Of a stretch of 40,760 nucleotides of DNA, positions 14,320 to 38,313 are shown piece after piece (within the stretch, counting starts at the first letter, position 1; every line of letters starts with the position of its first letter). A program made the translations under genes and the position numbers. Location: NCBI GenBank assembly GCA_020050835.1, contig JAGVKB010000110.1:1-40760 (forward strand), in the 5' to 3' direction. The notes beneath the pieces are model-generated. The model made no database searches. It worked only from the letters and a program-made list of their open reading frames with translations, and was not told the origin of the DNA. Source of the stretch: Candidatus Obscuribacterales bacterium. Lineage in GTDB: Bacteria; Cyanobacteriota; Vampirovibrionia; Obscuribacterales; Obscuribacteraceae.

Positions 14320-14829
14320 ATGAAAAAAGTAAGCCTCATTGTGATGTTGCTGTTAACAGTGGCCGGAGCTTTCGAGATCTGTTGCCTGAGCGATGTGCAC
14401 TCGGCCGTTCGAAAGACTGTAACTGGAGAGAAAAGCGCGCCTTCGGAGGATATCCCCTTCGTCACAATTGACGCCGGCACTACGAGCGGTATCACGACCC
14501 GCGAGAAGTATGTGATCAAAGACGAAGCTCAATGGGTTTCGCTCTGGCAGAAACACGCGTCCACCGAGTTTCCCCCCTCGCAAGCTCCGCGGGTAGATTT
14601 CAACTCGGAGATGGTAATTGCAGTCTTTGCGGGCGAACATCATCGGCCTGGCAGCGTGATTCAGATCGACCATATCAGAAGAGCCGACAACAAACTGTAC
14701 ATCATAATCGGTGAGAGCTCAGCTGGTGCTCGCATCGGCAAAGAAACCAACCCTTATGCCGACACTCAACCTTACTTCATTGCCCGGACAGCTCAAAACC
14801 CTCTACAAATTGTCTTCCAGGGAATCTAG
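14320..14829 (+). CDS. PrcB C-terminal-domain-like secreted protein
   Basis: 169 residues with a signal peptide (M-K-K then hydrophobic to about 28). The body fits the PrcB C-terminal family by pattern: W-x-S-L-W-x-K-H, P-x-V-D-F-x-S-E-M-V-I-A-V-F-A-G, a Gly-Ser-V-I-x-I strand, then Y-I-I-I-x-E. In Treponema the PrcB protein assembles with the PrtP protease; such domains elsewhere are mostly uncharacterised. The 3' end overlaps the convergent kinase gene by 53 bases. The upstream GGAG at about 14304 is a weak ribosome site. Confidence 0.75.
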   Translation: MKKVSLIVMLLLTVAGAFEICCLSDVHSAVRKTVTGEKSAPSEDIPFVTIDAGTTSGITTREKYVIKDEAQWVSLWQKHASTEFPPSQAPRVDFNSEMVIAVFAGEHHRPGSVIQIDHIRRADNKLYIIIGESSAGARIGKETNPYADTQPYFIARTAQNPLQIVFQGI

Positions 14830-16435
14830 TATCATCACTGTGATTGGCAATCAAATCGAGCAGGTCTCCGGCCACTGCCCGACAGGTTAGATACCGCCGC
14901 TCCGGCTCCAGAGCGGTGCAACACGCAATAATCCTGTCCATCTCCTGACTAACAGACGGATCGGAAACGCGCGGATGGGACTGCGAAATCGGCACGGGAT
15001 CTGCTCCTGTCAGTATGTAATGAAGCGTCGCTCCCAGTGCATAAATGTCGCCTTGGTAGCTGCACAAACCACGAAACTGTTCAGGAGATATATATGACTG
15101 CTTGCCGACAACCTCTCCAGATCCGGCATGCAAGCCCAGTGATGCGACCGAAAAATCGATTACCTTTATCTTGCCGTCTTCGCACAACATAATGTTTTCA
15201 GGAGAAAGATCGCGATGGACCACCGGCACCGGCAGACCGTGCAGATAATTCAAAGCCTTGCAGATTTCAAGGCCGATCTCGGCGGTCCGGCATTCTGGTA
15301 TCGCTCCATTCAGCTCGACATGTCTGCGTAGCGACACTCCATCTACATACTCGAGTATCACGTAAGCCCTTTCTGCATCTACAAAGCAATCCAGCAGTCT
15401 GACAATACTGTCGTTCTGCAAGGCAGAGAGAATCGAGACCTCCCTCTCGAATGAGGAAAGCGATTGCAGGCGAGCGTCATCTCCGGTGCAGGCCGCTGGT
15501 ATAAACTCCTTGAGTACAACCATCGCGCTCTCGGCAGGAAACCGAATCTCATCCTGAAGCGGATCTTCAGAAGGCAGGAGAGCACGATTCACTTCAGCAG
15601 CATAGACATTAGCTTGCCCGCCGGTCTCCAGGCGCCTGACAATTCGGAAGGCACCACCGCGCAACAATGCTCCCGGGGCAAGATAATCAGCTCGCTGGCC
15701 GGCAGTTGAGCTCTCCAAGAGCTGCAGCCATAGCTCAGTGTACCTGGAGCCGCGCTCGGGCAGCGTCTCATCAAGGAGCGCTTGATACACACAGTGCGGG
15801 ACATCCAGATGCGTCGCCCACCGCCGCAGGGCTGTCATCAACTTTCGACGTTGATCTTGATCGAAATCATTAATAGGAATGCGAAGAATTCTATGCTCAG
15901 CCGCACAGAACAGATTGATTGTGTGCAACCAGGGGCGAGCAAAAAATCGCTCACCAACCAAGAGCCGATTTCGCAAAAGGCTAGACAGCAAAATCGGTCC
16001 ATACGTGATGGCACTAATCGAGCGCCATGGCACTAGGTGAGTCGGATCGCCGGAATCTTTGCTCAATTGCTGCTCGGCTGACGGCAACCACCTCAACCCG
16101 AATTGCCCGACCTCTAGCTGTGCTCGGCTCTGCCTCATCGGCAGATCTTGCCCAAATAGAAAGACCATGAGTATCACTAAGCCCATCAAAGCTGCGTAGG
16201 AAAACAAAACCACCAGATTCAAGAAGAACCTCGCCGAACCAGGCTCGACACCGACGCTCATGTACTGCCAGAGGAAAGCGATGTTTAGTTGCTGGAATCC
16301 AAGCAAAATAAAGACCAGCCGTTGCAACTTGCTCGACCGCCAGAGAAAGCCGGTTCGACCGATCGACTTCGTCTCGGGGCGAAGCAAGATATGGTCGGGA
16401 TTACAGTCAAAAGATCGCTTCGACTGGAGCTTCAC
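14777..16435 (-). CDS. Membrane Ser/Thr protein kinase with DFS in place of DFG (kinase 1)
   Basis: 552 residues. Two membrane segments lie at about 35-60 and 68-95, then a PH/YcxB-like region (about 100-215, with P-W-R-S-I-S-A-I). The C-terminal kinase domain is about 260-535. It has K309 (V-L-K-E-F), H-R-D409-L-S-P-E-N-I-M, and D427-F-S429 where DFG is usual. S-P-E-Q-F and D-I-Y-A-L-G-A-T are also present, so catalysis remains plausible. The order membrane-PH-like-kinase is the reverse of typical PknB receptors. The ATG overlaps the stop of kinase 2 (ATGA), so the pair is an operon. Its 3' end overlaps the PrcB-like gene tail to tail. Confidence 0.9.
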   Translation of the reverse strand: MKLQSKRSFDCNPDHILLRPETKSIGRTGFLWRSSKLQRLVFILLGFQQLNIAFLWQYMSVGVEPGSARFFLNLVVLFSYAALMGLVILMVFLFGQDLPMRQSRAQLEVGQFGLRWLPSAEQQLSKDSGDPTHLVPWRSISAITYGPILLSSLLRNRLLVGERFFARPWLHTINLFCAAEHRILRIPINDFDQDQRRKLMTALRRWATHLDVPHCVYQALLDETLPERGSRYTELWLQLLESSTAGQRADYLAPGALLRGGAFRIVRRLETGGQANVYAAEVNRALLPSEDPLQDEIRFPAESAMVVLKEFIPAACTGDDARLQSLSSFEREVSILSALQNDSIVRLLDCFVDAERAYVILEYVDGVSLRRHVELNGAIPECRTAEIGLEICKALNYLHGLPVPVVHRDLSPENIMLCEDGKIKVIDFSVASLGLHAGSGEVVGKQSYISPEQFRGLCSYQGDIYALGATLHYILTGADPVPISQSHPRVSDPSVSQEMDRIIACCTALEPERRYLTCRAVAGDLLDLIANHSDDTRFPGRQFVEGFELSGQ

Positions 16436-18081
16436 GACCGGTCTCCCGAGCGATGGACAGCAGCTACCGGCTGACGGCTCGCTGCTCCCGCCTTTCGATA
16501 ACCAGGAATTTGAAGCAGTTGAAGTCGCCCTTGTACCGCTTGGACGGTAGGTGGTCTACGGTCGGCTTCAAAGCTGGTCATCTCCGAGATAAGCTCAGCC
16601 AAGGCAGCTGAAATCGGGCGGTTTCGCCCAACTGGCATGCACTGACCAAGCGGCACTGGATCTTCGCCGGTGAGGAGCGCATACATAGTGGCACCGAGTG
16701 CATAAATGTCACTGAGCGTATCGGGCATACCTCGCAACTGCTCCGGCGCAATGAACGACTGCTTGCCAACCAACGTTCCCGTTGCATTGGCGGAAAAGAA
16801 CTTGGAGGCACCAAAGTCAATCAAACGAACATCGCCATCATCACCCATGACAATATTGTCAGGAGTGACATCGCGATGAATTACCACCGGATTATGATTG
16901 TGCAGGTACGATAAAGCAGAGCAAACCTCAACACCAATCCGGATGACAATGTCCTCCGCAAACGCCCCTTTCCTGAGCAGCAATTCTCTCAAATCCAGAC
17001 CGGCGAAATACTCCAGAATCAGATAGCGCCTGCCCTTTTCGACAAAGTGATCGCAAACCCTGGCAATCTTGGAATGATTGAGCGTAGTCAGAACACGACA
17101 TTCTCGCTCGAACAGCTCCATCGCCTTGGCACTCGAAGCTGATAGACCTGGCTCCACAGACTCCTTTACCACCACCAGCTGCCGCTCATCGAGTCTACCG
17201 AGGTAAGTGGCCGACCACGGTGTGCTGGCTAACTGTCGAACGATCCTGATTCGACCATCCTGGAGGCAATCGCCGCCAGACAGCGGCACAAATACAGTCG
17301 AGCGCAGGGATGCCGCAAGACTCTCCTCCCAAAAGCGAGTGTAAGACAGCCGCCTGCTCTCCGAATTGCCCGTCTGCGACGCCCCCTTCAGAGCCCACAG
17401 CGCGGGACTGATGTTGCAATTCGCCGCCAGTTCGTCAATCGTAGATACAAATGTCATCTGATCGCCTTCCGACATGCTCGAAAGGTCCAGAACGACCTGA
17501 CCGCCTGACCTGAATTTAAACTCCGCAAGCCAGTGATCCTTCGATTCAACATCTGTACTGTGATGCTCCAAGACGGACTCCAGATCTGACCACATGCGGA
17601 CGGTTTGTCCGTTCAACGAAGGTCCAAACCGCCTGGGAAAGACTAGCGACCTTCGCCTCAGGATAATTCTCGAGGCTGGCAGCAGGGATAGCACAGCCGG
17701 ACAAAATGCAAAAGTAAATGGCACGGCAGAAGCGCAGCTGGAGACAAACGCCATGAAAAGCAGAGCGCTTTCATCGGCAGAGCGAGCCTGCTTTGAAGGG
17801 GAAGCGTCGCCAGCAGTGGTCTTGAACAAGGAGTGCAAGAAACTCAATTGTCGAGGTCCAAATGAATCGCCAGCCAAGTCGTAGAGCCCAACGAACAAGA
17901 TAGATGAAGTCAGACCGAAGAGGAGGAGCACGGCGCAAAAATCGCTGGTTCTAGAACGCTCTCTGTACTTTAGAGAGACCGTCGGCTCCAACATTCTGCT
18001 CAATAGCGGTAACTGCCCTACATCCACGCCGTCTAGCCACCTCCGGTTGCTATCTTTAGCTATACCAGTCGTTTGTGGCAA
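16432..18081 (-). CDS. Membrane Ser/Thr protein kinase (kinase 2), tandem paralogue
   Basis: 549 residues from a TTG at 18081. A GTG at 18027 preceded by GGAGG, or the ATG at 17994, could be the true start. Two membrane segments (about 47-72 and 104-135) are followed by a PH-like region and a C-terminal kinase domain (about 275-525). Catalytic residues are K306 (V-V-K-E), H-R-D404-V-T-P-D-N-I-V, and D422-F-G, with A-P-E-Q-L. The glycine-rich loop is degenerate (L-A-S-T-P-W-S-A-T-Y), unlike kinase 1, which keeps a more normal loop but changes DFG. The two share the same architecture and differ in which ATP-site element is altered. Confidence 0.88.
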   Translation of the reverse strand: MPQTTGIAKDSNRRWLDGVDVGQLPLLSRMLEPTVSLKYRERSRTSDFCAVLLLFGLTSSILFVGLYDLAGDSFGPRQLSFLHSLFKTTAGDASPSKQARSADESALLFMAFVSSCASAVPFTFAFCPAVLSLLPASRIILRRRSLVFPRRFGPSLNGQTVRMWSDLESVLEHHSTDVESKDHWLAEFKFRSGGQVVLDLSSMSEGDQMTFVSTIDELAANCNISPALWALKGASQTGNSESRRLSYTRFWEESLAASLRSTVFVPLSGGDCLQDGRIRIVRQLASTPWSATYLGRLDERQLVVVKESVEPGLSASSAKAMELFERECRVLTTLNHSKIARVCDHFVEKGRRYLILEYFAGLDLRELLLRKGAFAEDIVIRIGVEVCSALSYLHNHNPVVIHRDVTPDNIVMGDDGDVRLIDFGASKFFSANATGTLVGKQSFIAPEQLRGMPDTLSDIYALGATMYALLTGEDPVPLGQCMPVGRNRPISAALAELISEMTSFEADRRPPTVQAVQGRLQLLQIPGYRKAGAASRQPVAAVHRSGDRS

Positions 18082-35999: not shown

Positions 36000-36539
36000 T
36001 TAAACGAGTTGCTTTTTTTTCAAAAGGCTCTCGAAGTAATACACAGCCCATTTAAAGTGATACATCCGGAAGAGATGAAAGCCGCATCTCCGCATCTCGC
36101 TATAAGCTTGATCGGCCGACCAACCTTCTCTTGCCATGCGATAAATCGCCAGCAAGAGCCCGGTGCGATCCGATCCGTGGAAGCAGTGCACATAGACCGG
36201 GCGCCTTTCTTGATCATCTAGAATCGCCAGAAACTGACGCACTATTTCAAGGCTGGGGAAAGTCCAGTAATTGAGCGGAAATCCCACGTAGTTTATTTTG
36301 AACTCCTGCGCCAAACGCCTCTCTTCAGAAATCGCCGTCCGCCGCCATCGCAATGAGACGACAGTCCGGACTTCAAGCGTTTGTAGATAACGAAATCCAG
36401 CCGCGTCCGGCTGCCCACCCCGGTAAAGCCACGCAGTCACTTTGCGAAAGTTGGGAATCGGCGCGGAAACCACTACCGGTGAGGTACCACCAGCATTGTC
36501 TCCCAGCGCTCGATTTTCCTTAGACGATTCCACTTTCAT
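36000..36539 (-). CDS. Dual-specificity/tyrosine phosphatase-like protein
   Basis: 179 residues from the ATG at 36539; a TTG at 36563 would add eight. The phosphatase P-loop is complete: V-H-C119-F-H-G-S-D-R125-T-G. The N-terminal half has the L-Y-R-G-G-Q-P and V-V-S-L-R-W landmarks of the DSP/PTP-like family. No signal or membrane segment. It probably dephosphorylates Tyr/Ser/Thr residues or phosphoinositides in the cytoplasm. It lies just downstream of the MshEN-repeat gene on the same strand (40 bases from its stop), suggesting co-transcription. A functional link to the membrane kinases is speculative. Confidence 0.87.
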   Translation of the reverse strand: MKVESSKENRALGDNAGGTSPVVVSAPIPNFRKVTAWLYRGGQPDAAGFRYLQTLEVRTVVSLRWRRTAISEERRLAQEFKINYVGFPLNYWTFPSLEIVRQFLAILDDQERRPVYVHCFHGSDRTGLLLAIYRMAREGWSADQAYSEMRRCGFHLFRMYHFKWAVYYFESLLKKKQLV

Positions 36540-36579
36540 ACCAGCAGTGTCACTAATATACAAAGTGTGTCACCAACAG

Positions 36580-38313
36580 TCACTTGCGTTTCTTGATCCA
36601 GGAAGACAGACGACCCAGGAATGTTTCCTCACTAGAAGTATTAGCGTATCTCGTTGCAACCGCCACCGGTTGGGCAGCGCCCGCCAGAGCTTCAGTTTGC
36701 GCAGCAGCTCTGGCGGCGTCGGCTGCTACCTCCCTGTTTAAGAAATCTCGAAACCTTAACTGACGATCGTAATCTCTTGAAACCAAAGCGGAGACTATCT
36801 GCTCAGGAGTGCAGATTCGTTGGTCAACCAAAACTCGGCCTAGCGGCAGCTTGTCGGCAGTGTGCCGAGAAAGCGCCTGATTCAAATCAGCCTCGCTCAG
36901 CACGCCATCGGCCAACAGCACTTCACCAAGCCTGTCGCGTACCGTCTCAGAATGCTCTCGCCAGCGGCGCTGAATCGCTAGCGCTTGCTCGACATCATCC
37001 TCGGTGCAAGAGCGCAAGGCGACCAAGATGCTGCCGATCTTTTGGCGACCAGTCGACTGCAGTCTGAGCGCTTCGTCAATCTTGCTCTGGTCAACTTTCC
37101 TATTCTTGATCAAGATGGACCCGAGTTTTTCGACCCCTGTCTTATAATCCTCGCGAATCTCCTTCTGCATCGATAGAGCTTGCTGAATATCGAAGCTCGA
37201 ACAGAGTCTTAGCGAAACTAAGAGTTCGCCCAGTACCTGGCGACCTCTCTCCTGAATTCTTAGGGCCTCCTCTAACTGTTGTCTCGAGATTGTGCCAACC
37301 TTCTCCAACCAGTGGCCGAGCCGCACGTCATCAATCTCATCTTGAAAGCTATGCCAGCCGTTGGCGCGCGCAAAATCCTGAACATCACGCTCGGTGCAAG
37401 CTCCCATCGCTCGCAAAATTCGTTCGAGCGACTGCCGGCCAACCTTTTGATTGCGAATCGCGCTTTCGAGCGAATCGAAGGTAATCACTCCCCGGCTAAT
37501 CAACAGCTGTCCGATCAAAGCAACACCGGCGCCGACCGAATGTTTCATTTCATCCTGCAGTTCCAAACACTTCCGGATGTCTTCTTCCGTACAGGCACCC
37601 ATCGAAGTTAGAATCTCGCCGATCGCTCTGTTGCCTTCACGCTTGATTTGCAGAGCTTCCTCCAACTTCGTTCGATTGAGCTTGCGCATTGCAATCAGAA
37701 TTTCGCCGATAAGCTCCCACTCCCGGCGCTGAGCAATTGTACGCATCGACGGCGGATCGAGACGCGAGGCGGGTCTGACATCAAGGCAGATTGTCAGCAG
37801 TGTTTCCCAGTCAATCACACCGGCGGCAATCAGAGCTTGTCCGAGCGTATCGTTATCAGCTCGATTGGCAGCAATATTTTTCAAGTCCGCCTGTCCGATT
37901 GCACCGGCTTCCAATATGCGCAAGGCGATGTAGCGTTCGACCGGCATTAAGAAGGAGTCTTGCGGGCAGATTAACATGAGCTCTTCGACCAATCGGTCCA
38001 CCTCGACCGGATTCGGTCTGCCGCTGCGCGATCCGCTGGCTGGCACTGACAGTAGCTTGGTGTTCGGTCCGAACCCATTTTTTACTGAAAGATCGTCTAA
38101 TCCCAGCGATGGAAAGCGATCAACTAACGGGAATGCAGCTCTCACTCCAATCGGCGCCAGCGAGCCGCTCGACAGTTCGACGAAGTAGCCGTTAGCGCCG
38201 ACCAGATAGCGATCGCCATCGGCAGACATAAAGGAGATCCACGAATCCGTCTTTCGACACCAGATTCGCAGCAGGCAGAGCGGCAGAAAGTTTCTAGATG
38301 GAGTCCTAGACAT
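36580..38313 (-). CDS. Tandem MshEN-type repeat protein (six 24-5-24 units), no ATPase
   Basis: 577 residues from the ATG at 38313; a TTG at 38319 and an ATG at 38229 are alternatives. Six units lie between residues about 127 and 513, each two half-motifs of about 24 residues, (R/K/L)-(L/I)-G-x-x-L ... L-x-x-A-L-x-x-Q, split by five residues. The last five units start at 201, 266, 331, 396 and 461, an exact 65-residue period with 12-residue linkers. This is the 24-5-24 layout of the c-di-GMP-binding MshEN domain of type II secretion and T4P ATPases. Unit 4 (R-L-G ... R-I-Q) is closest to the binding consensus. The second half of five units has C-T or C-S at one position. No Walker motif or signal. 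An Ala-rich, Lys/Arg-ending tail follows. Ligand binding is inference. Confidence 0.88.
   Translation of the reverse strand: MSRTPSRNFLPLCLLRIWCRKTDSWISFMSADGDRYLVGANGYFVELSSGSLAPIGVRAAFPLVDRFPSLGLDDLSVKNGFGPNTKLLSVPASGSRSGRPNPVEVDRLVEELMLICPQDSFLMPVERYIALRILEAGAIGQADLKNIAANRADNDTLGQALIAAGVIDWETLLTICLDVRPASRLDPPSMRTIAQRREWELIGEILIAMRKLNRTKLEEALQIKREGNRAIGEILTSMGACTEEDIRKCLELQDEMKHSVGAGVALIGQLLISRGVITFDSLESAIRNQKVGRQSLERILRAMGACTERDVQDFARANGWHSFQDEIDDVRLGHWLEKVGTISRQQLEEALRIQERGRQVLGELLVSLRLCSSFDIQQALSMQKEIREDYKTGVEKLGSILIKNRKVDQSKIDEALRLQSTGRQKIGSILVALRSCTEDDVEQALAIQRRWREHSETVRDRLGEVLLADGVLSEADLNQALSRHTADKLPLGRVLVDQRICTPEQIVSALVSRDYDRQLRFRDFLNREVAADAARAAAQTEALAGAAQPVAVATRYANTSSEETFLGRLSSWIKKRK
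36775..37935 (-). repeat. Six-unit MshEN-type protein repeat array (195-nt period over five units)
   Basis: Unit starts on the minus strand at 37935 and then 37713, 37518, 37323, 37128 and 36933. The last five are spaced exactly 195 nt. The DNA has diverged well below simple-repeat identity, so the array is old and held by protein selection. Confidence 0.85.

Follow-up and report, generated by a model that had tools for sequence, protein, structure and literature searches.

The array gene described here lies on the reverse strand of a 40,760-nucleotide stretch of DNA from a Candidatus Obscuribacterales bacterium (contig JAGVKB010000110.1), referred to below as the window. Its product has a beta-rich N-terminal domain, six repeated units and a helical C-terminal region, and orthologs start at the equivalent residue. 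A gene for a dual-specificity/tyrosine phosphatase follows 40 bp downstream of the array stop codon. Elsewhere in the window, a pair of neighbouring genes at positions 14780-18081 of the same strand encodes protein kinase domains (PF00069), and kinase-like genes are also found near several orthologs of the array (loci L063, L065, L066 and L069).

Table 1. Features of the array locus, in window coordinates. Units U0 to U5 are units 1 to 6 of the initial annotation, whose unit 4 is thus U3.
Feature	Position	Strand	Details
Dual-specificity/tyrosine phosphatase gene	36000..36563	(-)	Likely ATG at 36539; PF22741 E=4.5e-21; DSPc 2e-9; HC(X5)R motif
MshEN-array gene	36580..38313	(-)	ORF, 577 aa; ATG at 38313, stop at 36580; NF053729 E=2.2e-60
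C-terminal long helix, variable tail, short end helix	36583..36774	(-)	Model helices 503-545 and 565-575; tail 13% identical among orthologs
U5 (unit 6)	36775..36933	(-)	NF053729 51.2 bits; RLG start; His/Arg at the two Gln positions
U4 (unit 5)	36970..37128	(-)	NF053729 44.7 bits; Lys first; Gly and Gln invariant in both motifs; candidate c-di-GMP site with the best conservation
U3 (unit 4)	37165..37323	(-)	NF053729 46.5 bits; both Gly and both Gln present; candidate c-di-GMP site
U2 (unit 3)	37360..37518	(-)	NF053729 41.2 bits; decayed motif II lacking Gly and Gln
U1 (unit 2)	37555..37713	(-)	NF053729 45.7 bits; motif-I Gln replaced by invariant Lys
U0 (unit 1)	37774..37932	(-)	Degenerate, MshEN-like; no RLG or Gln; 8.3 bits, marginal (independent HMM); model helices 124-177
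N-terminal beta-rich domain, residues 7-115	37969..38295	(-)	Conserved; no known family; model pLDDT 87

The units begin at residues 128, 201, 266, 331, 396 and 461, with spacings of 73, 65, 65, 65 and 65 residues. Each has a 24-5-24 layout, although U0 is degenerate and its spacer is one residue short. Residue-identity autocorrelation over U1-U5 peaked at lags of 130, 65 and 195, in agreement with the initial annotation, which had described six such units, the last five of them 65 residues apart. Spacings in orthologous arrays range from 64 to 68, so the 65-residue period is not strictly kept. The initial annotation had also noted that the array has neither an ATPase nor a membrane segment, and this holds: Pfam and NCBIfam scans returned no ATPase domain and did not place the protein among the T2SS/T4P assembly ATPases (GspE/PilB/MshE), and no transmembrane-like stretch was found (maximum 19-residue hydropathy 1.58). 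Its description as stand-alone fits the polypeptide but not the setting, given the phosphatase gene downstream and the fusion of the two at an orthologous locus, L059.

The NCBIfam model NF053729 (c-di-GMP_motif, MshE-related) matched six stretches of the array protein, and in a profile search of the genome each of U1-U5 scored above its cut-off (41-51 bits vs 38). An independent HMM, trained on MshEN units of other architectures only, gave U1-U5 28.7-45.1 bits and U0 8.3 bits; the highest score among 2000 shuffles, which preserve composition only, was 7.6. Because the training units came from a family-HMM search, their selection leans slightly towards the array family. The Pfam MshEN model PF05157 did not match the array protein at E<=10 and in this genome matched only contig C26, perhaps because it models 90 positions including a second subdomain. 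A match to DUF4388 (PF14332) reached 30.7 bits against a cut-off of 25, but its best stretch spanned profile positions 46-114 and crossed unit boundaries. It was taken as a partial cross-match, one that recurs on many MshEN units and probably reflects a shared helix pattern.

An AlphaFold2 model, built with 14 family sequences as input (mean pLDDT 77, pTM 0.60), predicts the N-terminal domain, U0 and then five four-helix units, several of which extend their last helix into the linker; because of the pTM of 0.60, the relative orientation of units in this model is unreliable. Using Foldseek, predicted units were superposed on MshE (5htl) at 0.8 Å over 53 columns and on PilF GSPII-B (9glg/8pfa) at 1.0 Å, with probabilities of 0.99-1.00. 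Only such high-probability local matches were used, since the E-value ranking for the whole model consists mostly of chance matches to long helices. Profile matches and predicted fold together support the assignment of the units to the MshEN type in both family and fold, as the initial annotation had proposed; neither a missing per-unit profile match for U1-U5 nor an unrelated fold, which it had named as grounds for abandoning the idea, was encountered.

The N-terminal domain has a mean pairwise identity of 53% in orthologs over most of its length and found no match in Pfam or NCBIfam profile scans. When this region was modelled alone (pLDDT 87), Sm-like barrels were its top PDB fold matches, at probabilities of 0.51 or less, and this identity was not accepted. 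Of 146 relatives searched, ten genomes, all from the same family, contain long relatives (three in one of them); identities are 44-52%, with one at 35%. A scan with one peptide pattern over one genome per species (84,980 species) returned 11 loci; ten of these carry Obscuribacterales, Obscuribacter or Melainabacteria in their titles, and the title of the eleventh reads uncultured bacterium. In a 292-genome sample of the phylum, the profile of the N-terminal domain was also matched in three genomes outside the class (proteins L137-L139). A given unit is 53-63% identical to the same unit across orthologs, as opposed to 25-37% between units within one protein; the array is therefore old, and its units have diverged separately. 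It is a real, conserved and soluble protein, representing an Obscuribacterales family with its own N-terminal domain and Cys signature.

In MshE, c-di-GMP is contacted in each half-motif by Arg1, Leu2, Gly3, Leu17, Leu21 and Gln24 (PMC5013675). In PilF GSPII-B, Lys and Leu replace the two Arg residues and c-di-GMP is bound with an affinity of 6 nM (2 nM for the K167L form), and the consensus was widened by the PilF authors to (R/K/L)LG...Q (PMC11731258). GSPII-A of the same protein, with His33 and Arg62 at the Gln positions, does not bind, and reinstating consensus residues alone does not restore binding (PMC12002112), so a consensus is no proof of binding. By analogy with GSPII-B, Lys or Leu at the Arg position is compatible with nanomolar affinity. 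The initial annotation's emphasis on Arg is accordingly misplaced, as the Arg of U3 is present only in the window protein and not in its orthologs.

Judged by these known binders and the non-binder, U3 and U4 are the candidate sites, because both Gly and both Gln are retained. Gly3 and Gln24 of both half-motifs are kept at 86-100% across orthologs in U3 and U4 while most neighbouring surface positions vary, and Lys1, both Gly and both Gln of U4 are present in all orthologs. The first residue of motif II is off consensus in U3, and in U4 of most orthologs (Val or Pro/Lys are seen), and some of the Leu positions in U4 are occupied by Ile/Val. U0, U1, U2 and U5 fail the full set of (R/K/L)LG and terminal Gln in both motifs: the Lys at the first Gln position of U1 is invariant across orthologs, the motif-II Gly and Gln of U2 are gone in many or all orthologs, and U5, which retains Arg1 and has the most canonical-looking start, resembles PilF GSPII-A at its Gln positions. 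From sequence, U3 and U4 are thus the only candidate c-di-GMP sites. The multivalent sensor considered in the initial annotation survives in part, as two units carry the full Gly/Gln set, while the others lack it and are each conserved as themselves.

An alternative that we regard as somewhat unlikely, though worth serious consideration, is that c-di-GMP binding has been lost and that the array is a ligand-free structural solenoid, serving protein interactions as a rod in the manner of TPR or HEAT arrays. At least one required Gln or Gly is gone in four of the six units, the units are conserved individually rather than as interchangeable sensors, and the His/Arg pair of U5 is that of an experimentally non-binding domain. 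However, a bare scaffold needs none of the ligand-contacting Gly and Gln residues that U3 and U4 conserve above most adjacent surface positions.

The genome itself contains 26 GGDEF matches, one EAL and one PilZ, and c-di-GMP is therefore probably made there. With 27 NF053729 matches, MshEN units would be the commonest candidate c-di-GMP receptors of this genome. Such matches were present in 53 of 53 Obscuribacterales genomes searched (5-31 each at E<=1e-9), and MshEN units are widely expanded in the order. In this genome or its relatives they are joined to pyruvate kinase, to a DnaJ-like domain and to TPRs. In the pyruvate kinase protein of contig C73 (L074:6771-8675, reverse strand), two units precede a complete kinase (PF00224, 3.7e-119), and one of them is near consensus and is the top NF053729 match of the genome (67.1 bits). 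This fusion is kept at 63-67% in G011, G021 and G031, and an additional pyruvate kinase match without MshEN units occurs in the own genome, G011 and G021. A 226-aa protein on contig C2 (L079:7744-8421, reverse strand) has a DnaJ-like domain followed by two units, and L077 and L078 seem to encode small proteins of this kind. A second type of array has a period of about 98 residues (L073, L040-L045, L049, L052 and others) and is TPR-fused in some cases; its motif-I Gln is mostly replaced by Ser, Ala or Gly, and the motif-II Gln is present in nearly all units.

The array is linked to the phosphatase in three genomes. At L059 it is in frame with the same phosphatase in one 717-aa fusion, and at L068 the phosphatase gene directly follows the array gene. 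Aconitase comes directly after array and phosphatase at both of these loci; in the window it lies one gene further, past a convergent TPR gene. The phosphatases nearest to that of the window are those of L059 and L068 (61 and 56% identity), the rest being at 50% or less, and the three are one another's closest relatives. In the array tree, the window and L059 are grouped at 99/96, while the placement of L068 is not firm. At 17 other, more distant phosphatase loci there was no array or aconitase within about 1.5 kb, so linkage of the phosphatase to aconitase independently of the array was discarded (0/17). No such phosphatase was present in the examined flanks of other array orthologs, and for that reason it is not a general output of the family. 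In a second group of orthologs the phosphatase is missing and another set of neighbours is conserved (Glu/Leu/Phe/Val dehydrogenase, S58 peptidase and an acyl-CoA synthetase-like gene), so a general partnership was rejected. Adjacency or fusion in the three genomes suggests a possible route from c-di-GMP to protein dephosphorylation.

The reading that we favour, with modest confidence, is that the array protein is a cytosolic c-di-GMP receptor or adaptor, a structural array in which about two sites are live, and that in one sub-lineage it probably works with a phosphatase. It builds on the observed units, fold, per-unit conservation, gene linkage with fusion, and GGDEF repertoire; from these we infer c-di-GMP binding, rod mechanics and phosphatase control. 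Five four-helix MshEN bundles, joined through extensions of their last helices, would form a rod behind the conserved beta-rich N-terminal domain and the degenerate sixth unit. About two of the bundles (U3 and U4) would bind c-di-GMP, and the remainder would be diverged units retained for shape or protein contacts. As in PilF GSPII-B, c-di-GMP would rearrange the first part of helix 1 in the binding bundles, and would shift the rod or the domain that it presents. In the sub-lineage of the window, the dual-specificity phosphatase encoded alongside would provide the output.

It appears improbable that the array instead regulates nearby central metabolism, as a c-di-GMP control of carbon flux, rather than the phosphatase. 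The shared array-phosphatase-aconitase order, with aconitase one gene further in the window, and the fusion of two MshEN units to a complete pyruvate kinase in this and three other genomes point that way, but gene adjacency by itself is weak and the second group of orthologs sits in its different neighbourhood.

The initial annotation had remarked on a recurring C-T or C-S in the second half of five units, and this is borne out at motif-II position 12 of U1-U5 (its units 2-6). Among the loci compared, Cys occupies this position in 68/70 units of the array family vs 1/52 other MshEN units, whereas the Ser/Thr that follows is common in all MshEN units. That this signature is an active feature, with the Cys-bearing units as sensors of redox state or metal, is very hard to credit despite its family-wide occurrence, since position 12 is buried in the MshEN core (PMC5013675), each Cys is in a bundle of its own, 65 residues from the next, and the adjoining Ser/Thr is general.

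The best-studied MshEN receptors of c-di-GMP are located on pilus or secretion ATPases. Here, the module occurs in several copies, has no ATPase attached and is genetically linked to a protein phosphatase. The family provides units in natural grades from intact to decayed, useful for learning which residues are needed for binding, and with the pyruvate kinase fusion of the same genome a connection between c-di-GMP and central metabolism can be tested directly. Our search of the literature found no c-di-GMP paper for Obscuribacterales, which are non-photosynthetic Cyanobacteriota. A bolder and doubtful extension is that a dual-specificity phosphatase is gated by a receptor made of several MshEN bundles and that MshEN arrays, including those on central-metabolism enzymes such as pyruvate kinase, are the main class of c-di-GMP effectors in this lineage.

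One of the closest known systems is PilF of Thermus thermophilus, the top PDB sequence match of the array and among its best fold matches. It likewise has tandem MshEN bundles in one chain (three GSPII domains, A-C) and mixes binding (B, C) with non-binding (A) copies, as the array does by sequence, with candidate sites only. PilF domains, however, have an alpha/beta second subdomain and a traffic ATPase, whereas the bundles of the array are bare, about twice as many, and have no ATPase. The N-terminal domain of Vibrio cholerae MshE shares the 24-5-24 two-motif four-helix bundle (0.8 Å over 53 residues) but is a single unit on an ATPase with its Arg/Gln set complete. Proteins of NF053729, including the glycosyltransferase NfrB, share the family model, U1-U5 exceeding its 38-bit cut-off; in NfrB, as the family name has it, the motif regulates a covalently attached enzyme, while the array's phosphatase has a gene of its own in the window and is part of a fusion at L059 only.

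Within the same clade, the 98-residue-period arrays (L073, L040) also repeat MshEN units without an ATPase, some with TPRs, yet they have longer linkers and no Cys signature, and keep the motif-II Gln while mostly losing that of motif I. Like the array, L137-L139 of other Cyanobacteriota have the N-terminal domain, a degenerate first unit and additional MshEN units. They differ in having N-terminal TPR-like repeats and a Cys-rich ribbon, recognised by eye, and the distant homologs L137 and L138 have a transmembrane-like segment at the C-terminus. Tandem MshEN domains, as in PilF, and the NCBI model of the unit were already known, but in the literature searched we found no bare multi-unit MshEN protein that combines an N-terminal domain of its own with the Cys signature and a link to a phosphatase.
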